NCBI GenBank assembly: GCA_003154555.1
Contig: PMDT01000191.1
Location: 1,173 to 12,729, forward strand
Direction of reading: 5' to 3'
DNA length: 11,557 nucleotides
Origin: Spirochaetaceae bacterium
Lineage (GTDB): Bacteria; Spirochaetota; Spirochaetia; SZUA-6; Fen-1364
Program-made: the position numbers and the translations under genes
In this document: one piece after another, positions 1-11,557 of the stretch
How the letters are laid out: each line of letters starts with the position of its first letter
Numbering within the stretch: position 1 is the first letter of the stretch
The notes under the pieces: generated by a model
What the model was told of the DNA's origin: nothing
The model's database searches: none
What the model saw: only the letters and a program-made list of their open reading frames with translations

Positions 1-506
1 ACCTCGTGCCACGGCAGACGGTCTTTGAAAACGTTCTGCACGGCCGGCTGGGGTACAAGTCGACCCTCGCGGGCGTCTTCGGCCTCTACACGGCGGCGGA
101 GAAGGAGAATGCCTACGATGTCCTGGACAGGCTCGGCCTTGCCGACCAGATGCACAAGCGCTGCGACCAGCTCTCTGGCGGGCAGAAGCAGCGTGTCGGC
201 ATCGCACGGGCGCTCGTGCAGGAGCCGCGGGTGATCCTCTGCGACGAGCCCATTGCATCACTCGATCCCAGCTCGGCGAAAAAGATCATGGACAAGCTGC
301 ATCACATCTGCCGCGAGATGAACATCACCATCCTCATGAACCTGCACCAGGTCGACGTGGCCATCCGCTATTCCGACCGGATCATCGGCATCCGCGAAGG
401 CCGGATTGTCTACGACGATGACGCGAACAAGCTGAAGAAGAAGATGGTCGCGGAGATCTACGGCTCGGAGGCCGACGACATCCTTTTCGAGGAGCAGGCG
501 GGATGA
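1..506 (+). CDS. phnC: Phosphonate ABC transporter ATP-binding protein (5' end outside window)
   Basis: This is the 3' part of the ATPase that powers phosphonate import through the PhnE permeases. The frame is open from the first base (codons begin at base 3), so the gene starts upstream; the GTG at 6 is internal, not a start. About 167 residues remain. The Walker A loop is missing because it lies upstream. Present are the ABC signature LSGGQKQR (nt 171-194), the Walker B segment [13 protein letters not shown] with its catalytic Glu, and the switch His in NLHQVD. The segment [12 protein letters not shown] just after the window edge matches the region behind the Q-loop in PhnC proteins. The stop codon overlaps the phnE1 start by 4 bp (ATGA), so the two are probably translationally coupled. 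PhnC is favoured over other ABC ATPases because of the two following PhnE genes. Confidence 0.93.
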
Positions 507-1303
507 CATCGGCCCTTGCCGTGCGCAAGGTGCTCCTCCGCCGCAACCTCACATTCCTCGGGGGACTCCTTGTCATCGGCGCGCTCACGGCGGGTTCCTC
601 CGTTCTCACGGACTTCAGCTTCCGCGACTGCCTGCGCTCGTTTCCCAAGGCCATGCAGTGGCTCGCCGCCAACTTCATCCCCAACGCGCGCGCCGTACGG
701 GCGCTGCCGAACATCGCGATGAAGCTTGCCGAAACAATACTCGTCTCGGTCATGGCGAGCGTGCTGGGAGCGGCCGCCGCGCTTGCCCTGGCGATCCTCG
801 CCTCCCGCACCACTCGCCCCCACGCCACCGTGACGCTGCTCGTCCGGCTCATCGCCTCCGTCTGCCGGAACATTCCCGTGGTCGCATGGGCGATGATCTT
901 CCTGCTCTCTTTCGGTCAGAACGTCCTCACCGGCCTCCTGGCGCTCTTCATCGGCACCGTGGGCTACCTCACGCGCGCCTACACGGAAGTGATCGAAGAA
1001 ACCGCCGACAGCTCGGTCGAGGCACTGCGCGCGTCCGGCGCATCGTGGCTGCAGATTGTGACCCAGGCCGTCTTTCCCTCCATCATGCCCCAGATCGCAA
1101 GCTGGATGCTCTACATGGTGGAGACGAATATCCGGGACGCGACGCTCGTCGGAATACTCACGGGAACCGGGATCGGTTTCCTGTTCGACGTGTTTTACAA
1201 GAGCATGAATTACCCCTCCGCCGCCCTGGTTGTCATCGGCGTGGTGATCGTCGTCATCGCTATCGAGACGGCGTCCAATGCGCTGCGAAGAGTCATCCTG
1301 TGA
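503..1303 (+). CDS. phnE: Phosphonate ABC transporter permease PhnE, first copy
   Basis: This is an inner-membrane permease of 266 residues. Hydrophobic segments lie around residues 16-36, 74-100, 108-134, 140-157, 187-206 and 238-256. The cytoplasmic EAA loop that docks on the ATPase is visible at about residues 173-192, starting EALRASGASW and followed by a conserved Pro. The C-terminal part (DATLVGILTGTGIGF) is typical of PhnE-type permeases of phosphonate and phosphite importers. The start is the ATG that overlaps the phnC stop by 4 bp, with a GAGGAG ribosome binding site upstream. The next permease gene follows with a 1-bp overlap. Paired PhnE proteins usually form a heterodimeric pore. 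The specificity for phosphonate rather than phosphite is inferred from the C-P lyase genes nearby. Confidence 0.93.
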   Translation: MTSALAVRKVLLRRNLTFLGGLLVIGALTAGSSVLTDFSFRDCLRSFPKAMQWLAANFIPNARAVRALPNIAMKLAETILVSVMASVLGAAAALALAILASRTTRPHATVTLLVRLIASVCRNIPVVAWAMIFLLSFGQNVLTGLLALFIGTVGYLTRAYTEVIEETADSSVEALRASGASWLQIVTQAVFPSIMPQIASWMLYMVETNIRDATLVGILTGTGIGFLFDVFYKSMNYPSAALVVIGVVIVVIAIETASNALRRVIL

Positions 1304-2118
1304 TGGATGCAACGCGCCGACTGCCCGTACGACGGAGGACCGCCTCCACCATTGCGCTGAACGCCACGCTCCTCATCCTCGCAGGCGTCACTGTCGCGGG
1401 CTTCTTTCTCCTTGACACGAGGCACCTCGATGTCGGCAAGGCGTCCCTCAAGCTCTTCCACGACCTGGGGGGCATGATGACGCGGCCGTCGGCGCAGCAC
1501 TTCAGCCTCTCGGAGGCGCTAAAGGCAATACTGGTGACGCTCAGCCTCGGCTTCCTGACGACGCTGCTCGGTGCGATCCTGGCGCTGATCGTCGGTCCAT
1601 TTGCCGCGAAGAATCTCAGCCCGCGCGGTGTCGTCAATGCCCTCAAGGGTTTCGTCGCGTTCATCCGGGCGGTGCCCACGGTGCTCTGGGTGCTGATCTT
1701 CGCCATCGGTGCCGGGCTGGGAAGCGTGGCCGCGGTCGTCGGCATGACATTCCATTCCTTCGCGTATCTCGTGAAGGCGTACTCCGAGGCATTCGAGGAG
1801 ATCGACGCGGGTGTGATCGAGGCGTTGAAGGCGTGCGGCGCGGGCTGGCTCACAATCGTCGTGCGCGCCGTCATCCCGTCGTCCATGGGCTCCGTGATTT
1901 CGTGGACATTCATGCGCTTCGAGATCAACTTTACGAACGCGGTAGCGATGGGAGCGGCGGCCGGTGCCGGAGGGATCGGCTTCGACCTCTTCATGGCATC
2001 GGGCTTCTACTTCAACATCGGCGAGGTGGGGTACATCACGTGGCTCATCCTGCTGGTTGCCATCGCGCTGGAGATCGGGGCGACCCGGCTCAAGCAGACC
2101 CGGCACGTCGCGATCTAG
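1303..2118 (+). CDS. phnE: Phosphonate ABC transporter permease PhnE, second copy
   Basis: This is a second PhnE-type permease (271 residues), homologous to the preceding gene but clearly diverged. It has a basic N-terminus (residues 5-12 rich in Arg), a first membrane segment at about 16-37, further segments at about 74-100, 117-140 and 142-158, and a last one at about 243-262. Its EAA loop begins EALKACGAGW at residue 173, the same position as in its partner. The start is the ATG at 1303, whose A is the last base of the phnE1 stop (TGATG); a GTG at 1300 is an in-frame alternative. It is the last gene of the plus-strand transport unit and ends 48 bp from the end of the convergent C-P lyase operon. 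With phnC and an unseen phnD it would complete the importer. Confidence 0.93.
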   Translation: MDATRRLPVRRRTASTIALNATLLILAGVTVAGFFLLDTRHLDVGKASLKLFHDLGGMMTRPSAQHFSLSEALKAILVTLSLGFLTTLLGAILALIVGPFAAKNLSPRGVVNALKGFVAFIRAVPTVLWVLIFAIGAGLGSVAAVVGMTFHSFAYLVKAYSEAFEEIDAGVIEALKACGAGWLTIVVRAVIPSSMGSVISWTFMRFEINFTNAVAMGAAAGAGGIGFDLFMASGFYFNIGEVGYITWLILLVAIALEIGATRLKQTRHVAI

Positions 2119-2166: not shown

Positions 2167-2727
2167 TCAGACGCGCCAGACCTTGTAGGGCATCCAGTCT
2201 TCCCCCTCAAGATAAAAGAGGCCCACGTTGTCGCAGGTCCACGCGAATCCTTCCGGCAGGGCACCGGGGGTCTGCTCCCGCCAGCGCTCGATGGATTGGT
2301 AGCCGTCGAGGTCCAGGTCGTCATAGGCAAGCGTAAGGTGAGGCTCGAAATGCAGCCGGTTGCTCGCGCGCCACGTGGAAAGCCGCAGGAGTCTTTCGTT
2401 CAGCGCGGCGAGCGCCTGGCTCTTCTCCACCCGGTAGCCCACGAGGTATTTCTCCCTTTCCCCGTCCATGTACGTCGTCTGCCAGATCCCCGCGGTGCGC
2501 ACGGGGAACGGCTCCCACGTACCGACCGCCGCGCCGAATGCGTCGAGGAAAGTCGAAACGAGCTCGGCCGGCACGCGCGCGCCCGTTCGGAGCGTCACAT
2601 GCGGCGGGTAGGCAAGCGCTGCCCGGGACCGGCCGATCTCGCCGATCAGGCGACGCGCAGTGTCGATTTCTCTCGACATCTCCGCCGGCGGCGTCGTGAT
2701 GACGACGAAACGCACTGCCTCGCTCAT
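2167..2727 (-). CDS. 2H phosphoesterase (2'-5' RNA ligase-like), candidate cyclic phosphodiesterase of the C-P lyase pathway
   Basis: This 186-residue protein has the two H-x-T motifs that define the 2H phosphoesterase superfamily: PHVTL (His43, Thr45) and PHLTL (His130, Thr132). Their spacing is right for one two-lobed catalytic domain. Family members open 2',3'-cyclic nucleotides and, in the eukaryotic CPDases, the 1'',2''-cyclic phosphate of ADP-ribose. It is the last gene of the C-P lyase operon. The ATG start overlaps the upstream phosphatase stop by 4 bp (ATGA) and has a purine-rich GGCGGGG upstream. A 2H-type protein family (DUF1045) is known near C-P lyase genes; whether this shorter protein belongs to it cannot be told by eye. 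I infer that it stands in for the metallo-beta-lactamase PhnP, which hydrolyses 5-phosphoribosyl 1,2-cyclic phosphate. The fold call is firm; the substrate is inference. Confidence 0.82.
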   Translation of the reverse strand: MSEAVRFVVITTPPAEMSREIDTARRLIGEIGRSRAALAYPPHVTLRTGARVPAELVSTFLDAFGAAVGTWEPFPVRTAGIWQTTYMDGEREKYLVGYRVEKSQALAALNERLLRLSTWRASNRLHFEPHLTLAYDDLDLDGYQSIERWREQTPGALPEGFAWTCDNVGLFYLEGEDWMPYKVWRV

Positions 2728-3539
2728 GCCCCCGCCTTTGAGTTGATCTCCTGATAGATGCCCGCGGCGCTCGCGATGACTTTCCATTTGCCCGGCTGGT
2801 ATTCCCGCGCATCGACCACGGCGCCCGCTTCCCGCGCCACCACGGCGGCGGCGGCGAAATCCCAGAGATTCGTGCCCATCTGCACGAAGGCCCCGACCCG
2901 GCCTGCCGCAACCTGCACGATATCCAGGGCAGTGCTCCCGAAGCTGCGGATCTTCCGCGCCGACCGCACCATGTCGGGAAAAAGCCGGCTCATGCAGGCA
3001 ATGCTCTCTTCGCGCGCACCGAATGACAGCGCGACGACAGATTGGTCCAGCCTCGACGCCCGCGGTGCCGGAAGGGGCACCTGATTCAGCGACGCACCTT
3101 CACCCGCCGCTCCGACGAACAATTCCTCCCGCAGCGGGTCGTACACCACGCCGACGAGCGGATCGCCGAGCACGCTTCCATCCGGCAAGATGCAATTCAC
3201 ATCACGGGCGGCCTCTTCCCCCAGCGCGTAACATGCGATGCTCGTGCAGAAGAACGGTATCCCATGATAGAAGTTCACTGTACCATCCAGGGGATCCACG
3301 ATCCAGAGGAAGGCGGCCTGCCCGGGGACATAACCTGCCTCCTCTGAGAGGATTGCGTGGTCTGGAAACGCATCGCGAATCGTACGGAGTATCTCCGCCT
3401 CGCAGGTGCGGTCCAGCGCGAGCTTCAGGTCGTGCGCTGGCGTGTCATCGACCACGAGTACGCGGCTGTTGCTGCGCCGGATGATGCCGCCCGCGCCGCG
3501 CGCGGCATCCGTGGCTGTTGCACGCAGGCGGTCGATCAC
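2724..3539 (-). CDS. Inositol monophosphatase-family phosphatase in the C-P lyase operon
   Basis: This 271-residue Mg-dependent, Li-sensitive-type phosphatase has the family metal ligands: LSEEAG (Glu66/67), the motif DPLDGT (Asp82, Asp85) and a C-terminal WD (Trp226, Asp227). The last motif reads WDFAAAAVV where the usual form is WDxAAG, so a conserved Gly is replaced by Ala. The chosen start is a GTG whose bases overlap the stop of the hexapeptide gene (GTGA, 4 bp). No clear ribosome binding site is visible, so it may depend on coupling. Family members remove phosphate from inositol phosphates, sugar phosphates, or the 3' position of PAP. In this operon, where no phnN kinase is seen, ribose 1,5-bisphosphate or another phosphoribosyl intermediate is a plausible substrate, but that is inference. 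A role as CysQ-type nucleotidase cannot be excluded. Confidence 0.85.
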   Translation of the reverse strand: MIDRLRATATDAARGAGGIIRRSNSRVLVVDDTPAHDLKLALDRTCEAEILRTIRDAFPDHAILSEEAGYVPGQAAFLWIVDPLDGTVNFYHGIPFFCTSIACYALGEEAARDVNCILPDGSVLGDPLVGVVYDPLREELFVGAAGEGASLNQVPLPAPRASRLDQSVVALSFGAREESIACMSRLFPDMVRSARKIRSFGSTALDIVQVAAGRVGAFVQMGTNLWDFAAAAVVAREAGAVVDAREYQPGKWKVIASAAGIYQEINSKAGA

Positions 3540-4222
3540 GGCGCTTGTGAGCGGGCGGGCGCTGAGGGGGCGGCGTGCCGGGAAAGAAAGACATCCAGAT
3601 CGCACAGGTCGCGCCAGTTGGCTTCGAGCTCCTCCCGGGTCCAGTCCCACCACCTGCTCTCGAGGATCCGCGCGATCACCTTTTCGCTGAAACGCGCGCG
3701 CAGGGGCCGCGCTGGCACACCGACCACGACATGGAAGGGCTCCACATCATGGGTGACCACCGCTGCGGAACCGACAATGGCGCCCGTGCCGATCTTCACA
3801 CCCGGCATGATGACCGCCGCGTGCCCGATCCAGACATCGTGCCCGATGATGCAGGGGTGCGCGCGGCGCCATGCGAAAAACTCGTCGTCATCATGCGTGT
3901 CCAGACCGAACTTGACCCGCCGATACGTCATATGATGCTGGGCGACCCGGTCCGGCGGATGATTGCCGGGATTGATGCGCACCCTGTTCGCAATTGAGCA
4001 GAACTTCCCGATATCCGCGTAGAATATGGAGGCATCCCCATCATCGTAGGTGTAATCGCCGATGGTCGATTCCACGATGTGACTGTTCAGCCCGATCTCT
4101 GTCCAGGAACCGAGCCGACTCGCCACCACCATGGCACCGTCATGGATGAAAGGAGTCTCCGAGAGCCGTGCACCCGAGGCGCCGCCGTGGGCGCGCGGCT
4201 TCATGTTGATGTCATACAGCAC
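3536..4222 (-). CDS. Phosphonate-locus hexapeptide-repeat transferase
   Basis: This is a left-handed beta-helix acyltransferase-type protein of about 228 residues. Hexapeptide repeats are recognisable twice: an N-terminal set (SWTEIGLNSHIVESTIGDYTY) and a C-terminal set around IIGHDVWIGHAAVIMPGV and IGTGAIVGSAAVV. Between them are the segments FCSIANRVRINPGNHP and DDDEFFAWRR, which I recognise from the TIGR03308-type family found beside C-P lyase genes. It resembles xenobiotic and antibiotic acetyltransferases of the CatB type, and no acceptor is known. It may acetylate an aminophosphonate, a job done elsewhere by the unrelated GNAT enzyme PhnO; this is inference. The GTG start is preferred because GGAGG lies 6 bases upstream; this overlaps the end of phnM by 11 bp. 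An in-frame ATG at 4204 (222 residues) is the alternative but has no visible ribosome binding site. Confidence 0.85.
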   Translation of the reverse strand: MLYDINMKPRAHGGASGARLSETPFIHDGAMVVASRLGSWTEIGLNSHIVESTIGDYTYDDGDASIFYADIGKFCSIANRVRINPGNHPPDRVAQHHMTYRRVKFGLDTHDDDEFFAWRRAHPCIIGHDVWIGHAAVIMPGVKIGTGAIVGSAAVVTHDVEPFHVVVGVPARPLRARFSEKVIARILESRWWDWTREELEANWRDLCDLDVFLSRHAAPSAPARSQAP

Positions 4223-5441
4223 GAGCCGCCTCCGGCAATGGCAGGGCTGCTTCCTCAGCCCATCGATCTCCCATGACATCCAGCGTGCCATCGCGCTTCT
4301 CGTAAACGCGATGACCGCTCACCCATGCGCCGACCACGACCGGGACCTCCATGTCGTTCACAAGGATCATGTCAGCGCGCTTGCCGACCTCAAGCGAACC
4401 AAGCTCCGTGTCGAGCCCCGCGGCCCGCGCGGGGTGAATGCTCGCCATCCGCACGGCATCGGCAATGGGCAGCACCCTGTCGCGCACCAACCGGAACACT
4501 GCGTGCAGCATGGCAGGGGTGTAGTAATCCGAGCAGAGGATGTCCGCCGCGTTGCTGGCGATCGCCTCGATCGCGCTGAGATTATCCGTCGTGGATTTGC
4601 CCCGGAGGACATTGGGTGCACCCACGGCAACGTGCAGCCCCCCGCGCGCGGCCGCGAGCGCCGCCGCCGGATCCACGGGGAACTCGGAGATGCTGACGCC
4701 CAGGTCCCGCATGCGGGCAACCTTTTCCGGGGTGTCGTCGTCGTGGGACGCGATCGGAAGACCTGCCGCGCGGGCAAGCGCCGCGAGCTTCTCCAATATG
4801 GCGCCGACTGCCGGATTGAGCGCCTTCCTGCTCCTTTCCTCGATCAGAGCATCCACCTCTGCGCGGGTGGAGTTGTATTTCCTCGCGTAGTAGCTCACGA
4901 GATGCTCGACATTCCTGTATTGCCCCTGCCCGGGGGTATGATCCATCAAGGACACCAGTCCTACTTGCCGGTCGTCGATCAGCCGGCAGAGGCGCTCGAA
5001 GTGCTGGATCTCCACCATCTCGTAGCGGGCATGCACGAGGTGACGGATCACGCCCGTGCGGCGAAGCCGATTCAGCTCGCGAATCGTCGGCTCGAGGTGT
5101 TCGGATTCAAGGCTTCCCTCCCGGCCGTCCATGAAGGAAAAAGAGTGGAAGATCGTCGTGATGCCGTGGCTCACGAGCCGGGATTCCATCGCCGGCAGGG
5201 CAACCGACAGCGGGATCACGGCGCGCGGCCGCGGCTCCAGCTCCTGCTCGATGCCGTCGTTGTGCAGGTCGATGAAACCCGGCAAGAGCAGCCTGCCGCG
5301 GCCGTCCACCGCGTCGACATTCGCGGCCGCCGCGCCACGGGTGATCGACACGATGCGCCCGTCGCGTGCTGTGAGGGTGCCATGGTCGATCACGACGCCG
5401 GGGGTCACGATGCGCACATTCATGATGACGGTGTCCTTCAC
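4212..5441 (-). CDS. phnM: Alpha-D-ribose 1-methylphosphonate 5-triphosphate diphosphatase
   Basis: PhnM removes pyrophosphate from the ribose 1-alkylphosphonate 5-triphosphate made by the PhnI complex, giving the substrate of PhnJ. This is an amidohydrolase-superfamily protein of 409 residues. It starts with the usual small beta-domain and has the family metal site GFIDLHNDGIEQ, followed by HARYEM, LMDHTPGQGQY, ASHDDDTPEKV and, near the end, GAPNVLRGKSTTDN and SDYYTP, all characteristic of PhnM. The start is a GTG with GGAGG 7 bases upstream (5449-5453); it overlaps the phnL stop by 4 bp (GTGA). The ATG at 5423 is an internal alternative (403 residues). The protein is somewhat longer than the E. 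coli enzyme, mainly at the C-terminus. Confidence 0.97.
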   Translation of the reverse strand: MKDTVIMNVRIVTPGVVIDHGTLTARDGRIVSITRGAAAANVDAVDGRGRLLLPGFIDLHNDGIEQELEPRPRAVIPLSVALPAMESRLVSHGITTIFHSFSFMDGREGSLESEHLEPTIRELNRLRRTGVIRHLVHARYEMVEIQHFERLCRLIDDRQVGLVSLMDHTPGQGQYRNVEHLVSYYARKYNSTRAEVDALIEERSRKALNPAVGAILEKLAALARAAGLPIASHDDDTPEKVARMRDLGVSISEFPVDPAAALAAARGGLHVAVGAPNVLRGKSTTDNLSAIEAIASNAADILCSDYYTPAMLHAVFRLVRDRVLPIADAVRMASIHPARAAGLDTELGSLEVGKRADMILVNDMEVPVVVGAWVSGHRVYEKRDGTLDVMGDRWAEEAALPLPEAARAV

Positions 5442-6139
5442 GACGCTGCCTCCACTTCGCGCATCGGTGCCATTTCGATCACGGTGTCGGAAAGCCGGGC
5501 AAGAAGCGCCGTGTCGTGGAAGACACCGATCATGGCCGTGCCTTCGGCCCGCAGCTCCTGGATCAGCGACACCGCCTCGCGCGCGGTGGCGGCGTCGAGG
5601 GACGCGGTGGGCTCGTCGAGCAGCAGGAGACGCGGGCGCGCGATGACGGCGTGGATGATATTGATGCGCTGCTTCTCGCCGCCGGAAAACGTGGAAGGAT
5701 ACATGGCCCACAGCCTCCGCGGAATCGCAAGCCGCTCCAGGAGCTCGCGCGCCCGCGTCTCGCTGTCGGCCCGGGGGTGGCCGCGCGCGACCATGCTGTT
5801 GGTGATCGTGTCCAGTGCGGAGACACGCGGAATGACCGGGAAGAACTGCGAGATGCAGCCGATCTCCTGGCGCCGCAGCCTCAGGACCACGTGCTCATCA
5901 GCGGCCGACAGGTTGTGCGTGTGGGCACGGGCATCCGTGTACCACATTTTGCCCGCGGAGGGCAGGTAGGTGCGGTAAAGGCATTTCAGGAGCGACGACT
6001 TGCCGCTGCCGCTCGGCCCGCTTACCCCGAGGAACTGGCCCGGCTCCAGCGTGAAGCTCACGTCGCGGAACGCCTCAATGCGTGCTCCCCCGCGCACGTG
6101 CAGGATGAAGCTCTTGGAAAGCCCCTCGCATCGCATCAT
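5438..6139 (-). CDS. phnL: C-P lyase accessory ABC-type ATPase PhnL
   Basis: PhnL is one of the two ATP-binding-cassette subunits that associate with the PhnGHIJ core; it is not a transporter ATPase. The 233-residue protein has Walker A GPSGSGKS (41-48), the signature FSGGEKQR (151-158), Walker B LLLLDEP with Glu176, and the switch His208 in FHD. The early FILHVRGG and WYTDARAHTHNL segments fit PhnL rather than PhnK. The chosen start is the ATG with AGAGGA 7 bases upstream. A GTG two codons earlier would sit directly against that ribosome binding site and is unlikely; another ATG is the second codon. There are 13 bases between the phnK stop and this start, the largest gap within the operon. 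The phnM start overlaps its stop. Confidence 0.96.
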   Translation of the reverse strand: MMRCEGLSKSFILHVRGGARIEAFRDVSFTLEPGQFLGVSGPSGSGKSSLLKCLYRTYLPSAGKMWYTDARAHTHNLSAADEHVVLRLRRQEIGCISQFFPVIPRVSALDTITNSMVARGHPRADSETRARELLERLAIPRRLWAMYPSTFSGGEKQRINIIHAVIARPRLLLLDEPTASLDAATAREAVSLIQELRAEGTAMIGVFHDTALLARLSDTVIEMAPMREVEAAS

Positions 6140-6152
6140 CTGCACGTCCTCT

Positions 6153-7007
6153 CTACAGCGTCGAATGCACCAGCAGCTGGGTGTAGGCGTGCTGGGGGTC
6201 CTCGAGTATCTGGTCGGTGAGCCCCTGCTCGACGACGCAGCCGTTCTTCAGCACCATGGTCCGATCGGCGAGCAGCCGGATGACACCCATGTCGTGGGAG
6301 ACGACGATCAGGGAGATTGCAAGCTCGTGCTGCAGCTCGCGTATCAGGTCAAGCACGCGCGCCTGCACGCTCACGTCAAGACCCGACGTGACTTCGTCCA
6401 ACAACACGAGCGGCGGGTTGTTCGCAAGGGCCTTGGCGATCTGGATGCGCTGCTGCATGCCGCCGGAAAGGGTGCGCGGAAGCGCGTCGATATACGACGC
6501 GGGAATCTCGGTCTTTGCCAGGAGCTCCCCTGCCCGCGCGCGGATGCGTGCGAAATGGAAAACCTCCGCCTCCAGGAGCTTCTCCGCTACATTCGCGCCG
6601 CTTGTGATGTCCACGCGAAGTCCGCGCAGCGGGTTCTGGTAGACCATGCCCATCAGGCTCGCGCGGATGCGCCGCTTCCGATTCCGCGCGAGCCTCAGCA
6701 CGTCATCATTCGGGTCGTGATCGCGCAGGCGCAGCTCCCCCGACGTAGCCTCGACGTCGAAATAGATGCACTGCACGAGCGTGCTCTTTCCCGAGCCGCT
6801 TTCACCGACAATGCCCAGGATCTCAGCTTCGCGCAGATCGAAGCTCACGCCGCGCAGGGCGATGATCGATCCACAGCGCGGGCAGACATTCGTTCCCCGA
6901 TCGGGTCCGGTCTCCTCTTCGCAGGCGTCGCATCCCAGGCCGTAGCGTTTGCCGATGTTCCGCGCGCTGAGGACCACGGACCTCTCGGTGACGGAGCTGT
7001 CAGTCAT
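6153..7007 (-). CDS. phnK: C-P lyase accessory ABC-type ATPase PhnK with a four-cysteine insertion
   Basis: PhnK binds as an ATPase to the PhnJ face of the C-P lyase core. The 284-residue protein has Walker A GESGSGKS (68-75), the signature LSGGMQQR, the D-loop GLDVSVQAR and the switch His in SHDMGV, and its C-terminus ends HAYTQLLVHSTL as in known PhnK. Two things are odd. Residues 26-45 form a C-X2-C-X12-C-X2-C motif inserted between the first two strands before Walker A; the E. coli protein has only a short turn there. Also, the Walker B end reads LLDEVTSG instead of DEP. The start is the ATG that overlaps the phnJ stop by 8 bp, with AAAGGG 8 bases upstream. The longer open frame upstream is the shadow of phnJ. 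Oligopeptide-type transport ATPases are the nearest alternative, but the operon position rules for PhnK. Confidence 0.95.
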   Translation of the reverse strand: MTDSSVTERSVVLSARNIGKRYGLGCDACEEETGPDRGTNVCPRCGSIIALRGVSFDLREAEILGIVGESGSGKSTLVQCIYFDVEATSGELRLRDHDPNDDVLRLARNRKRRIRASLMGMVYQNPLRGLRVDITSGANVAEKLLEAEVFHFARIRARAGELLAKTEIPASYIDALPRTLSGGMQQRIQIAKALANNPPLVLLDEVTSGLDVSVQARVLDLIRELQHELAISLIVVSHDMGVIRLLADRTMVLKNGCVVEQGLTDQILEDPQHAYTQLLVHSTL

Positions 7008-7893
7008 GCGGCGCGCCCTTTGCGGGAACGACCCCCGCCTGCACGAGGTCGCAAAAGCCGGAATCCGAGCAGACGCGTGAGGGCTTTCCCGTCCGCTCGT
7101 CATAGATTTCATCCAGGAAGGTGCCCGTCGATCCGCAGCGCGCGCAGGAAAGGCCGGCAAAGGATTCCACTTCGAATGGAAGATCGTCGAACTCCAGCGG
7201 ACGGACGCTCGTATGCGGGGGCACGGCATAGACGCGCTTTTCACGCCCGGCACCCAGCAGCGTGAGATGGGATGCCTGATTGAGCATCGGGAGGTCCCAG
7301 CGCGGCAAGGGTGACGGCGACATGATGTAGCTGCCATTCACGCGACAGGGGTAACCGGCCGCAAGGGAGATCGCGCCATTCTGTACGACGTCCTCGTACA
7401 GGGAGACCCACATGCGCGCGTAGTCGCCTTCGGCATGCATCCTGCGGGTCTCCACTTCGCTGGGCTCTACGAGCCGCAAGGGCTCGGGCAGCGGAACCTG
7501 GAGCACCGCGATCTGCCCCTCCGTCATCGGGATCTCAGGCAGGCGATGGCGCGACTGCAGCAGCGTAGACTCGCGCGAATCGAACGTCGTCCGCACGCCG
7601 GTCGTGGCGACCAGGAGCTTGCGAAGGTTCACGGCGTTCACGCTTCCGTCGCAGCCCTGGTCGATGATCTTCAGGACGTCGTCGGGTCCGATGAGGGACA
7701 TCGTGACCTGCAGCCCGCCGGTGCCCCATCCCCGCGCGATGGGAAGCTCGGGTGACGCAAAGGGGACCTGGTGGCCCGGTATCGCCACGGCTTTCAGGAG
7801 CGCGCGCCGGACCTCCCGTTTCGCCCCTTCATCCATGAAGGCGAAGTTGTAGCGGAACGCTCCGGCCGCCGGCAGAAGGTCGCGAAGGCTCAT
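7000..7893 (-). CDS. phnJ: C-P lyase catalytic subunit, radical SAM-type PhnJ
   Basis: PhnJ breaks the carbon-phosphorus bond of ribose 1-alkylphosphonate 5-phosphate by radical chemistry, releasing the alkane and 5-phosphoribosyl 1,2-cyclic phosphate. The 297-residue protein aligns closely with the E. coli enzyme. Gly40 in VAIPGHQVPF corresponds to the radical Gly32; Cys250, Cys253 and Cys275 correspond to the [4Fe-4S] ligands 241, 244 and 266; Cys281 corresponds to the thiyl Cys272. All catalytic residues are therefore intact. GWGTGG, DQGCDGSVNAV and LGAGREKRVYAVPP are also typical. The N-terminus is about 8 residues longer than in E. coli. The ATG start overlaps the phnI stop by 4 bp (ATGA), and its own stop overlaps phnK by 8 bp. 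Confidence 0.98.
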   Translation of the reverse strand: MSLRDLLPAAGAFRYNFAFMDEGAKREVRRALLKAVAIPGHQVPFASPELPIARGWGTGGLQVTMSLIGPDDVLKIIDQGCDGSVNAVNLRKLLVATTGVRTTFDSRESTLLQSRHRLPEIPMTEGQIAVLQVPLPEPLRLVEPSEVETRRMHAEGDYARMWVSLYEDVVQNGAISLAAGYPCRVNGSYIMSPSPLPRWDLPMLNQASHLTLLGAGREKRVYAVPPHTSVRPLEFDDLPFEVESFAGLSCARCGSTGTFLDEIYDERTGKPSRVCSDSGFCDLVQAGVVPAKGAPHD

Positions 7894-8981
7894 TCCTCGG
7901 ACCCCTGGAGGTTCCGCAGGCGGTCGAGGTCCGACTGGAACGTGACGTAGTGGGGAAGCTTGAAGTGCGAACAGAATCCCGACGACTCGATCCCGTCGGT
8001 ATGCAGCAGGACAAACTCCTGGTCCTCCGCCGGCGCATGGGGGCACGGGGACTTCATGGCCCGGTCCAGCACCGCAATCGATATCGCCTTCACTTCATTG
8101 TGTCCGAAGCAGGCGCCATAGCCCAGGCTGAAGGCCGGCTTTTCCTCCTGCTCGGAGCGCCGGACCGAAGCCACGATTTCCACCTCCGTGATCGCAAGAG
8201 ACCCGAGTGAGACGGCGGCGCCCGGACGGAAGGGATGGGGGATCTGGACGCGCACGTACCCGACGCGAAGCTCCGCGATTGTCGGGTGGATGCTGCCGTA
8301 GCCGCGCATGCTGCTGTACGCCAGCGCGAGCAGCCCTCCGGTCTCCGCGCGGGCGAGCATCTGGAGCCGGCCGCTGCGGTCCAGCGGAAACTCCGCCGAC
8401 TCCTGCGTGACGTCGGTGGGCTCTGCCGACAAGGCCGGGGCGAGCGGCGCGACGAGGCCCTGATCGCGCAGCATCGCAACGACCTTGCGAAACTGGTCGG
8501 GATCGAGACTTTCCTCAATGCCGTCGATGAAGGATTCGAACTCGCGCTTCGCGTCGCACTGCGTGCCCGCGGTCTCCTCCGCGAGCGAAAAATCAAGGAT
8601 GCGCTGCTCGTAGTCCGACGTGGAGCCCAGGACCTGTCCGCCGGGAATGGTCTTGAAGGCGCTGGAGATGCGCCGCAGGATCCGCATCTGGTCGGTTCGA
8701 ACGGGCAGCGAATCGACCAGGCGGCGGAGCGTCGAGCGATACGCGCGCAGCAGAAACGATGCCTCGATGGGGTCTCCGCTGGCCTGCTTCAGGGCCAGCG
8801 CCGCGTGGAACGGGGAGTGCAGGCTGCCTTCGCTCATCACGCGGTCTACGAGCGGCGCCATCTGCTCCATGATCTGCCGCACCGTGAGCGGCGCGCTCTG
8901 GCCGCGCAGGCGCAGGTAACGATTGAGCTTCTGGGAGTTCTCGATAGCGGTGATGCCGCCCTGGACCGCAACGTACCCCAT
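7890..8981 (-). CDS. phnI: C-P lyase core subunit PhnI (nucleosidase/phosphonate transferase)
   Basis: PhnI, helped by PhnG and PhnH (with PhnL needed in vitro), displaces adenine from ATP by a phosphonate to form ribose 1-alkylphosphonate 5-triphosphate. The 363-residue length matches the family. Characteristic segments are the start MGYVAVQGG, LALKQASGDPIEASFLLRAY, RRISSAFKTIPGGQVLG, LALAYSSMRGYG, the GYGACFGHNEVKA region and the C-terminal EFVLLHTDGIESSGF followed by HFKLPHYVTFQ. The ATG start shares its A with the phnH stop (TGATG), and GGAAG lies 7 bases upstream. The stop overlaps the phnJ start. No frameshift or missing block was seen. Confidence 0.98.
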   Translation of the reverse strand: MGYVAVQGGITAIENSQKLNRYLRLRGQSAPLTVRQIMEQMAPLVDRVMSEGSLHSPFHAALALKQASGDPIEASFLLRAYRSTLRRLVDSLPVRTDQMRILRRISSAFKTIPGGQVLGSTSDYEQRILDFSLAEETAGTQCDAKREFESFIDGIEESLDPDQFRKVVAMLRDQGLVAPLAPALSAEPTDVTQESAEFPLDRSGRLQMLARAETGGLLALAYSSMRGYGSIHPTIAELRVGYVRVQIPHPFRPGAAVSLGSLAITEVEIVASVRRSEQEEKPAFSLGYGACFGHNEVKAISIAVLDRAMKSPCPHAPAEDQEFVLLHTDGIESSGFCSHFKLPHYVTFQSDLDRLRNLQGSEE

Positions 8982-9610
8982 CAGGCCGCTTCCACGCGCG
9001 TCGAACGGGGAATGCCCGCTACCCGGCCGGCCTCGTCGACGAGGATCAGGTCGATACCCATGGGGGCGAACCGGTTGGCGCGGGCGCGCTCATCGACATA
9101 GCGGCCGTCCAGCCCCGAAACAGCCAGGGCGGCGCGCCCTTCCACCCCGGGGCCTTCCAGGGACAACGTGCGGACTGTCTCCACCGGTGCGGCCTGAAAA
9201 TCGGCAAGCGCTCCAATGCACAGGAGCGCCGTTGCCGAACGTTCAGGGAATTCCGGAGTCCCCCGCTTCAGGTAGGCGAACTCCTCGTCGAACCCTGCGC
9301 CGTCAAAAAGGACGAAATCGGCTTCCTCAAGGCGGCGGAAGGGCGTCGAGAGGTTCACCTCCAGGTACGATATCCACGCGCGGCGTTCATTCGGTCTGCC
9401 CAGGGAGAATGAGACCCGATGATCGCAGAGCGTCTTCAGCACCGAAAGCGCGGCCGCGGGGAAACCCGGGGGCGACCCGGTCCACGCGATGCCCGGAAGC
9501 TGAATGACCTTCCCCGGCCTGCTGAGGGCGTCGAGGAGGACCCGAAAGATCGCCTGGCTGTCGAAAACCTCGTCGAAAGCGACCTCTCGGACGACCCCCT
9601 GCGTGTACAC
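8981..9610 (-). CDS. phnH: C-P lyase core subunit PhnH
   Basis: PhnH is a structural and accessory subunit of the PhnG-H-I-J core complex, and its fold is distantly related to PLP-enzyme domains without binding cofactor. The 209-residue protein has the family N-terminal signature FDEVFDSQAIFRVLLDALSRPG and the later DFVLFDG, LKRGTPEFPERSAT and SGPGVEG-like (LEGPGVEG) segments. It starts at a GTG directly after the phnG stop (TAG then GTG, no gap). The ribosome binding site GAGG lies inside the end of phnG, about 8 bases upstream, so no ATG is needed. The last segment (FAPMGIDLILVDEAGRVAGIPRSTRVE) is the usual PhnH C-terminus. Confidence 0.95.
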   Translation of the reverse strand: MYTQGVVREVAFDEVFDSQAIFRVLLDALSRPGKVIQLPGIAWTGSPPGFPAAALSVLKTLCDHRVSFSLGRPNERRAWISYLEVNLSTPFRRLEEADFVLFDGAGFDEEFAYLKRGTPEFPERSATALLCIGALADFQAAPVETVRTLSLEGPGVEGRAALAVSGLDGRYVDERARANRFAPMGIDLILVDEAGRVAGIPRSTRVEAA

Positions 9611-10021
9611 CTAGCGCACCTCGAAGCTGACCCGGGTGGAGGCGACAGCCCTGCCCTCCCTGTTCCAGCGCTCTTCGATCCGCTTCTGCTCGGATTCAAG
9701 GAGGGGTCGAAGCTCGACGGCAAAGGCGTGCCCGCCGCCAACCACCGCGTCCACAAGAGCGGCGCACAATGCGTGCTCGTTACCGCCGCCCAGGATGCAC
9801 CCATAGCCCAGGAGACCGTCCACTTCGACCTCGCACTCGGTGACGAATGCCTCCCCGAGGAGGAAATGGGTGTTCTCCAGTGGATCCACGTGCCGCACCA
9901 TGACCATGCCGGGCGCGGGAGGCTTCAGGAGCTTTACCGGCAGGCGCGCGGCGATGGTCTCCGCGATACTCGTGACCGCTTCGAGACTGCCCTCTGCCAC
10001 GATCTGGGAATGTTCCATCAT
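9611..10021 (-). CDS. phnG: C-P lyase core subunit PhnG, first gene of the operon
   Basis: PhnG is the small subunit that pairs with PhnI in the C-P lyase core. The protein of about 136 residues has the conserved middle part MVMVRHVDPLENTHFLLGEA and VTECEVEV, followed by LLGYGCILGG and a helix ALCAALVDAV, in the expected order and length. The exact start is uncertain: GTG at 10024 and ATG at 10021 and 10018 lie in a row, and none has a strong ribosome binding site. Only a GGGA stretch about 10 bases upstream of the GTG is visible. It opens a ten-gene operon and is divergent from phnX, with which it shares the AT-rich control region. Confidence 0.93.
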   Translation of the reverse strand: MMEHSQIVAEGSLEAVTSIAETIAARLPVKLLKPPAPGMVMVRHVDPLENTHFLLGEAFVTECEVEVDGLLGYGCILGGGNEHALCAALVDAVVGGGHAFAVELRPLLESEQKRIEERWNREGRAVASTRVSFEVR

Positions 10022-10043
10022 CACGGCTCAAGGATCCCGAAGT

Positions 10044-10152: not shown

Positions 10153-11019
10153 ATGAACCCATCTGCCGTGAATGGACATCAAGGTGGATCGGAGCGCGAA
10201 GCGGGCGTCCGGGCGGTCATCTTCGACTGGGCGGGAACGACGGTGGATTTCGGCTGTTTCGCCCCCGCGGTGTCAATGATCCAGGCATTCCGCGCGAACG
10301 GACTGGTCCTCACGATGGAGGAAGCGCGCGGACCGATGGGGCTGGAGAAGAAGGACCACATCCGTGCGCTGCTCTCCAAGCCGGTCGTGAAAGCGCGCTG
10401 GATGGAAAAGTGCGACGGAGAACCGACCGAGGCGGACGTTGAGGCGATTTACGCCGAGCTGGAGCCTCGTCTCATGGATGCCGTCCGGCAGCACGCGGAG
10501 CTCGTCCCGGGCATCGTCGAGCTCGCGGACGGGCTGCGTTCGCGCGGCGTTGCGATCGGGTCCACAACGGGGTATTCGCGCACGGTAATGAATGTGGTCG
10601 TCGCGGAGGCGGCACGCCGCGGCTACCGCCCCGATGAGGTCGTCTGTCCATCGGATGTTCCCGCGGGCCGCCCTTTCCCCTGGATGTGCTACCAGAACGC
10701 CATGCGCCTGAACGCGTACCCCTTCTCCCGCATGGTGAAAATCGGTGACACGCCAGCCGATATGCGGGAAGGCGTCAATGCCGGCATGTGGACGATCGGG
10801 CTCGTCCAGTGCGGCAACGAGATCGGTCTTTCACTCGACGACCTCGCGGCTATGCCCCAGGAAATCATCGCCGCGCGCCGGGAGCGCGCCTCCCTGCGCC
10901 TGCTCGGCGCAGGGGCTCATTACCTGGCGGATGACCTCACCGAATGCGCGGCCCGGATCCGGCGCATCGAGGAAAGAGTCCTTCGCGGCGACAGGCCATC
11001 CCGGGAGGACGCGCGATGA
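10153..11019 (+). CDS. phnX: Phosphonoacetaldehyde hydrolase (phosphonatase)
   Basis: PhnX splits phosphonoacetaldehyde into acetaldehyde and phosphate, the second step of 2-aminoethylphosphonate breakdown. This HAD-superfamily protein has 288 residues. The first motif FDWAGTTVD gives the nucleophile Asp25, with Ala27 two residues later as in phosphonatases (most HAD enzymes have Asp there). Lys66 in MGLEKKDHIRAL corresponds to the Schiff-base Lys53 of the Bacillus cereus enzyme. GSTTGYSR and KIGDTPADMREG are the second and acidic metal-binding motifs. The ATG start leaves an N-terminal tail of about 18 residues before the first strand; its ribosome binding site is weak, and a GTG at 10168 is possible. 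Its stop overlaps the phnW start by 4 bp. Confidence 0.97.
   Translation: MNPSAVNGHQGGSEREAGVRAVIFDWAGTTVDFGCFAPAVSMIQAFRANGLVLTMEEARGPMGLEKKDHIRALLSKPVVKARWMEKCDGEPTEADVEAIYAELEPRLMDAVRQHAELVPGIVELADGLRSRGVAIGSTTGYSRTVMNVVVAEAARRGYRPDEVVCPSDVPAGRPFPWMCYQNAMRLNAYPFSRMVKIGDTPADMREGVNAGMWTIGLVQCGNEIGLSLDDLAAMPQEIIAARRERASLRLLGAGAHYLADDLTECAARIRRIEERVLRGDRPSREDAR
11004..11008 (+). promoter_or_regulatory. Ribosome binding site of phnW
   Basis: A perfect GGAGG lies 7 bases before the phnW ATG, inside the end of phnX. It fixes the start of this overlapping gene. Confidence 0.8.
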
Positions 11020-11557
11020 TCCCGGATGACCTTCCTCCGAACCCCTATGTCCTCCTGACGCCGGGCCCACTGAGCACGACGAAAGGCGTGAGAGCAGCCA
11101 TGCTGCGCGACTGGTGCACCTGGGACGACGACTTCGGCAAAGTCGTGCAGGACATCAGGGCGCGGCTGACGGCGCTGGCCACCGCTCACGCCGGTTACAC
11201 CAGCGTCCTCATGCAGGGCTCGGGCACATTCTGCGTCGAGGCGACGCTCGGCACCGTCGTGCCCCCGGAAAGCGGGCTCCTGGTCGTCGCCAACGGGGCG
11301 TACGGGGAAAGGATGGGAACGATCGCCGCGCGACTGGGCATCCCGCACCGCATGCTGCGCTTCCCCGAGACTGAAGCCTGCAGCGCTGATTCAATCCTGA
11401 ACGCTCTGCGCGGAGACGATGCGACGACGCACGTCGCCGTCGTTCATTGCGAAACCACGACGGGCCTGCTGAACCCCCTGGAACGGATCGCGGCGGCGGT
11501 GCGGGAAAGCGGCCGCACGCTCATCGTGGACGCCATGAGCAGCTTCGGCGGCATTCC
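11016..11557 (+). CDS. phnW: 2-aminoethylphosphonate:pyruvate transaminase (3' end outside window)
   Basis: PhnW transfers the amino group of 2-aminoethylphosphonate to pyruvate, giving alanine and phosphonoacetaldehyde for PhnX. About 180 codons are present and the frame is open to the window end. I translated it by hand. The start MIPDDLPPNPYVLLTPGPLS is followed by DWCTWDDDF, the phosphate-binding loop LMQGSGTFCVEA, HCETTTGLLNPL and VDAMSSFGGIP; Asp172 in the last is the residue that contacts the pyridine nitrogen of PLP. All align with known PhnW of class V aminotransferases. The PLP-binding Lys would lie just beyond the window, so the intactness of the gene cannot be judged. The ATG overlaps the phnX stop (ATGA). 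Confidence 0.96.
   Translation, partial: MIPDDLPPNPYVLLTPGPLSTTKGVRAAMLRDWCTWDDDFGKVVQDIRARLTALATAHAGYTSVLMQGSGTFCVEATLGTVVPPESGLLVVANGAYGERMGTIAARLGIPHRMLRFPETEACSADSILNALRGDDATTHVAVVHCETTTGLLNPLERIAAAVRESGRTLIVDAMSSFGGI

Follow-up and report, generated by a model that had tools for sequence, protein, structure and literature searches.

Which enzymes complete the C-P lyase pathway in a phn gene cluster that contains neither phnP nor phnN is the question raised by a stretch of 11,557 bp (the window) from a Spirochaetaceae bacterium (GenBank assembly GCA_003154555.1, contig PMDT01000191.1; a metagenome-assembled genome of 418 contigs that is 69% complete, G000 in the following). In Escherichia coli, the diesterase PhnP and the kinase PhnN yield PRPP, as described in PMC3840354 and PMC10574752, and an alternative route through phnPP to ribose 5-phosphate is described in PMC8774927. 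The cluster in the window ends with genes for an IMPase-family phosphatase and a 2H phosphoesterase, and judging from gene content, order and conservation we consider it rather probable that this pair completes the C-P lyase pathway without ATP and replaces PhnPP in this lineage.

On the minus strand, the window contains, in this order, phnG (9611..10024; TIGR03293, 91.7 bits, cut-off 89), phnH (8981..9610; TIGR03292, 135.1 bits, cut-off 91.5), phnI (7890..8981), phnJ (7000..7893; PF06007, 422.9 bits), phnK (6153..7007), phnL (5438..6145; TIGR02324, 257 bits, barely above the cut-off of 256.3), phnM (4212..5429; NF011990, 409.1 bits, cut-off 233; TIGR02318, 381.1 bits, below the cut-off of 390.55), a gene for the hexapeptide-repeat acetyltransferase of phosphonate clusters (3536..4204; TIGR03308, 248.4 bits, cut-off 201.65), and the genes for the IMPase (2724..3539; 271 aa; PF00459) and the 2H phosphoesterase (2167..2727; 186 aa; PF13563). 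PhnI and PhnJ gave no match in the NCBIfam profile search at 0.001, and are 46% (over 365 residues) and 54% (over 267 residues) identical to their E. coli counterparts; PhnK, for which the top match (TIGR02323, 235.5 bits) is below the cut-off of 302.85, has 52% identity (231 residues) to its counterpart in E. coli. The stop codon of the acetyltransferase gene and the GTG start of the IMPase gene overlap by 4 nt (GTGA, 3539-3536), as do the IMPase stop and the ATG start of the 2H gene (ATGA, 2727-2724). Together with the open reading frames and the Pfam assignments, these overlaps confirm the first-pass annotation in its description of the two as the last, overlapping genes of the C-P lyase cluster; the start coordinates of both genes were chosen from the overlaps and from homologues, and the list of open reading frames has longer upstream starts.

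Convergent with the 2H gene, a phosphonate transporter is encoded on the plus strand (3..2118), comprising part of phnC (PF00005) and two phnE-like permease genes (two PF00528 domains); the product of the complete phnC gene (L044), which extends beyond the window on the contig, has 41% identity to the E. coli protein over 253 residues. On the far side of the cluster, genes for a HAD hydrolase and a class-V aminotransferase, as assigned by Pfam, diverge from phnG (10153-11557, plus strand); we take these to be phnX-like and phnW-like, in which case C-P lyase and a route for 2-aminoethylphosphonate would be encoded next to each other.

No phnP or phnN gene was seen in the window, in agreement with the first-pass annotation, and neither reached its cut-off in the 69% complete assembly (PhnP, TIGR03307, best match 25.6 bits, cut-off 272.25; PhnN, TIGR02322, best match 16-17 bits, cut-off 156). 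The same result was obtained for every genome that was searched as a whole (0/9 with PhnP or PhnN above cut-off: G000, G286, G305, G053, G104, G405, G409, G418, and G417, which is the same genome as G513). Sub-threshold PhnP-like matches of about 95 bits (cut-off 272; G104, G305, G286) and PhnN-like matches of 44-60 bits (cut-off 156; G418, G053, G104) may represent related MBL proteins and guanylate kinases, respectively. For G429, G442, G443, G456, G457, G500, G512 and G521 the search for PhnP and PhnN covered cluster DNA only. The fetched DNA of the 16 phn clusters that were compared (see below) gave no match to PhnP, PhnN or DUF1045 at E 0.001, with E. coli PhnP and PhnN and Paracoccus PhnN and DUF1045 as single-sequence queries.

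The 2H phosphoesterase, the proposed ring-opener of 5-phosphoribosyl 1,2-cyclic phosphate, is a member of the 2H superfamily by profile (PF13563, 46.9 bits, cut-off 27). In an alignment of 44 rows (A1), H43 and T45 are invariant and H130 and T132 are conserved in at least 90%, and both H-x-T/S motifs are present in all seven 2H proteins of phn clusters (G418 counted). The protein had been likened at first reading to eukaryotic cyclic phosphodiesterases (CPDases), for which the ring opened on ADP-ribose by the Arabidopsis enzyme is the 1'',2''-cyclic phosphate. This analogy stands in so far as Arabidopsis CPDase (1jh6/1fsi, PF07823; acting on ADP-ribose cyclic phosphate, Appr>p, by its PDB title) was the top Foldseek match (1jh6, E 2.4e-9) of the AlphaFold model (pLDDT 95.1). 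It does not extend further: YjcG and LigT aligned to the model (VIA-align) equally well or better than CPDase, so that the predicted fold does not discriminate a 1,2-cyclic substrate; the identity to the Arabidopsis enzyme is 14%, and the match to PF07823 is weak (13.3 bits, below the cut-off of 21; 20.3 and 20.7 bits for the relatives in G418 and G305, respectively). Similarly, the profile of A1 found YjcG at E 5e-7 and 1fsi only at E 0.016.

An assignment of the window's 2H protein to DUF1045 was ruled out by profile, with no match to TIGR03223 (limit E 10; the Paracoccus DUF1045 protein, as positive control, scored 272 bits) or to PF06299 (limit E 1), and with an hhalign probability of 0.3 for the DUF1045 profile against the single 2H sequence. 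Since PF13563 is matched by the Paracoccus protein as well (33.2 bits, cut-off 27), the two are distant kin within the superfamily. When the best eight or fewer candidates per genome were scored, 20 of 392 genomes of the phylum had a 2H match at E 0.001; the three strongest (G000, G305 and G286; E 8e-41 or better) are all PhnJ-positive, and none of the remaining 17 (E 6e-14 or weaker) is in the PhnJ-positive set. A 2H scan of genome contigs yielded three loci, including those of G409 and G513, and a scan of viral contigs yielded none.

The IMPase, proposed to be a sugar-bisphosphate phosphatase, belongs to its superfamily by profile (PF00459, 164.6 bits, cut-off 27), and the metal-site motifs (E-E, DPxDG[TS], WDxAA) are intact in all eight IMPases of the clusters. 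It reaches neither the SuhB equivalog level (NF008027, 134.5 bits, cut-off 332) nor that of the CysQ bisphosphate nucleotidase (TIGR01331, 66.7 bits, cut-off 228.8). It further differs from the inositol monophosphatases SuhB/IMPA1 in having HDLK at the position of NDFV in E. coli SuhB, and in the IMPase tree it falls outside the E. coli SuhB group. The HDLK motif was rejected as a marker of C-P lyase IMPases, since it also occurs away from phn genes in G015 and G060, and G443 has YDLT. These HDLK-type IMPases of two PhnJ-negative genomes are encoded at L092:9422-10312 (G015) and L093:9791-10657 (G060), and the proteins encoded downstream of them are, by eye, alike in both genomes. A single clade of all cluster IMPases was not recovered either (tree without G443, G512 and G521, and with several long branches); those placed fall into at least two distant groups.

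For comparison, we examined the cluster DNA of all 16 Spirochaetota genomes in which PhnJ was found (5/392 genomes of the phylum, 3/26 of the order and 14/394 of the class; 16 in union); a seventeenth genome, G418 (L017), is not included in the counts of 16. The cluster DNA was searched at E 0.001 with profiles for 2H, PHP and IMPase that were partly built from these clusters, so that positives include training members; contigs end within the cluster in G500 and G456, and G443 is represented by a 16-kb contig only. A PHP gene was found in 13 of the clusters, with G000, G443 and G104 as the exceptions, a 2H gene in six (G000, G443, G305, G286, G409, G513), and an IMPase in eight, either as a separate gene (G000, G443, G405, G409, G512) or fused to PHP (G305, G513, G521). 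Six clusters contain PHP with neither IMPase nor 2H. The position after the acetyltransferase gene is occupied by IMPase-2H in G000 and G443, by PHP-2H in G409, and by PHP-IMPase in G405; G405 and G409 are from the window's own order, and the IMPase gene of G409 sits in a second phn segment. G443 thus repeats the order acetyltransferase-IMPase-2H of the window, with 36% identity for each of the 2H and IMPase proteins. In G409, the 2H gene beside the PHP gene (L073:12987-13487) stops early, with a TAA within the match in the genome search.

All clusters except that of G104 have either PHP or 2H plus IMPase (15/16). In G104, a xylose-isomerase-like TIM-barrel protein is encoded directly after phnM (L050:13252-14166), in a cluster without PHP, 2H and IMPase; its NCBIfam matches (the phosphodiesterase CbiR, and Nfo) are weak, and it is possibly another ring-opening enzyme. 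A Halomarina plasmid carries an annotated sugar phosphate isomerase/epimerase gene in the position seen in G104 (L076:12723-13517).

The replacement of PhnP and PhnN, as claimed initially, was thus borne out in that both are absent as far as seen, and has to be amended in that the usual occupant in this phylum is a PhnPP-like PHP protein (13/16); the pair would accordingly stand in for PhnPP, not for PhnP plus PhnN. For all 13 PHP proteins of the clusters, NF041661 (PhnPP) was the best NCBIfam model, with scores of 193-279 bits that are all below the cut-off of 500. The test for an anti-correlation across genomes, which had been proposed at first reading with respect to phnP/phnN, rests on a single lineage of clusters: the adjacent IMPase-2H pair without PHP occurs only in G000 and G443 (Fisher p 0.025 for the adjacent pair versus PHP, ignoring kinship), and the PHP-less genomes G000, G443, G104 and G418 form one clade with support 100 in a tree of the core genes (PhnI, J, K; 910 columns). 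The absence of PHP may therefore be a single event, and the p value is not independent evidence. A strict exchange of 2H for PHP was ruled out, because the two coexist in four of the six clusters with 2H (G305, G286, G409, G513); 2H is thus not retained solely where PHP is missing.

The pair most likely converts phosphoribosyl cyclic phosphate to ribose 5-phosphate and Pi. We infer the substrates of both enzymes, the order of the steps and the products as follows: PhnJ would leave 5-phosphoribosyl 1,2-cyclic phosphate, the 2H protein would hydrolyse the cyclic ester, giving the 1,5- or 2,5-bisphosphate of ribose, and the IMPase would take off the phosphate that is not in position 5, to give ribose 5-phosphate and Pi. 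The same products had been suggested in the first-pass annotation, and fit the comparative picture. Acting at the same point of the pathway as E. coli PhnP and PhnN, two single-function enzymes would do what PhnPP reportedly does alone; PhnPP (NF041661; Elen0235) is a single enzyme of the PHP fold for both steps, whereas the cluster in the window encodes two unrelated folds, and no PhnPP was found in it. A 2H protein (RcsF/DUF1045) as stand-in for PhnP has already been proposed in PMC3840354 and PMC10574752, of which the latter, a review, gives rcsF in 16 operons without phnP in a survey of 54; a similar proposal for DUF1045 is described in PMC8235418. Like the window's protein, RcsF/DUF1045 (TIGR03223, PF06299) is a 2H-superfamily protein in phn clusters without phnP; unlike the window, in which the partner is an IMPase, the Paracoccus cluster retains phnN. 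A 2H stand-in is therefore in print, and no paper linking an IMPase to C-P lyase was found among CC-licensed PMC papers.

The three PHP-IMPase fusions (G305, G513, G521) join both domains in one chain. A database search with one of these (8000 candidates scored) yielded 115 proteins, 70 of which have both Pfam domains by hand count; some of the latter are named Maledivibacter, Clostridiaceae and Dendrosporobacter (Firmicutes). Within this fusion family (P0217-P0300), P0255 was named phosphoribosyl 1,2-cyclic phosphate 1,2-diphosphodiesterase by JGI. In the fusions of Spirochaetota and Firmicutes, the PHP domain would open the ring and the IMPase domain would remove the phosphate, and we give about even chances to the wider reading, that a 2H protein outside DUF1045 plus an IMPase is a further ATP-free end of the pathway, arriving at the same products as PhnPP, and that the PHP-IMPase fusions are one-chain versions. 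According to PMC11656708, there are PHP diesterases without monoesterase activity, and Elen0235 (PhnPP) hydrolyses both the diester and the resulting monoester of its cyclic substrate. A phosphatase partner makes sense in view of such pure diesterases; if the lone PHP proteins resemble Elen0235 in catalyzing both steps, there would be no need for a fused IMPase, and the six clusters with PHP alone indicate that the IMPase is not essential.

It is rather unlikely that the 2H protein opens the ring and the IMPase has another task in the cluster, for example the hydrolysis of some other phosphate ester that imported phosphonates give rise to, with the ribose bisphosphate left to a general phosphatase, a mutase or a kinase. 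Such a division would agree with the scattered origin of the cluster IMPases and their HDLK-type relatives outside phn clusters, and with the eight of 16 clusters that have no IMPase, among them that of G286 with both 2H and PHP; the repeated fusion of IMPase to a PhnPP-like domain, however, connects this enzyme with the step at the cyclic phosphate.

Returning to the ATP-free route by IMPase and 2H, it has to be considered that a third of the G000 genome is unassembled. A genome-wide PHP search, performed for G000 only, gave ten matches, of which eight loci were read. L062, which among these resembles the PHP proteins of the clusters most (31% over 254 residues), scored higher with the models for RNase Rnm (170.3 bits) and nucleoside bisphosphatase (198.7 bits) than with that for PhnPP (99.1 bits), L060 fits HisJ, L065 had no match at 1e-8, and the remaining loci read gave partial alignments or lie within longer frames. 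No PHP protein of the PhnPP family is encoded on the cluster contig of this 69% complete assembly. It is unlikely that the ring is actually opened by a PhnPP or PhnP encoded in the unassembled third, with the pair as accessory enzymes, e.g. for the clearing of side products. The incompleteness of the assembly would allow for it, and the 2H proteins that accompany PHP in four clusters may catalyze a different or additional step; against it, the PHP genes of the other clusters lie inside the phn cluster DNA (13/16), whereas the contiguous cluster of the window is without one, as is that of G443, and PhnP and PhnN were above cut-off in none of the nine whole genomes.

When 96 homologues of the 2H protein were compared with the best 120 of 4031 IMPase homologues, with equal contig size as proxy for the same contig, 24 pairs were found on equal-sized contigs, in comparison to a mean of 1.33 in a shifted-size control; 22 of these also share the source (the window itself is one), with 11 of the 22 on contigs below 7 kb. 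The pairing is thus not due to chance. In G403, a genome of the same genus (91% complete) with no PhnJ match, one contig carries remnants of IMPase, 2H and phnE2 in the order of the window (L072 10417-11241): a broken 2H gene (44% identity over 130 aligned positions), a short IMPase match (56 nt at 75%, E 3e-4) and a 22-residue match to phnE2, which suggests that the pair was lost together with C-P lyase. A role of the 2H protein at 2',3'-cyclic ends of RNA, with a SuhB-like housekeeping function for the IMPase and an incidental phn neighbourhood, is very unlikely. It would agree with the commonness of both superfamilies and with the match of the 2H fold to LigT; against it, the order recurs in G443, 22 of the 96 2H homologues are linked, 2H and IMPase are present in six and eight of the 16 clusters, respectively, and the window's IMPase is outside the SuhB group of the tree.

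With phnP and phnN as the yardstick, a cluster of the type found in the window would be taken for incomplete. If the proposed end by IMPase and 2H is true, unrelated hydrolases have been recruited several times to remake the final steps of the C-P lyase pathway, and the pathway ends here with ribose 5-phosphate and Pi, and not with PRPP. If the reading of the fusions is true, IMPases were recruited to the C-P lyase pathway at least twice, and there would be a testable substrate for a considerable number of PHP-IMPase fusion proteins.
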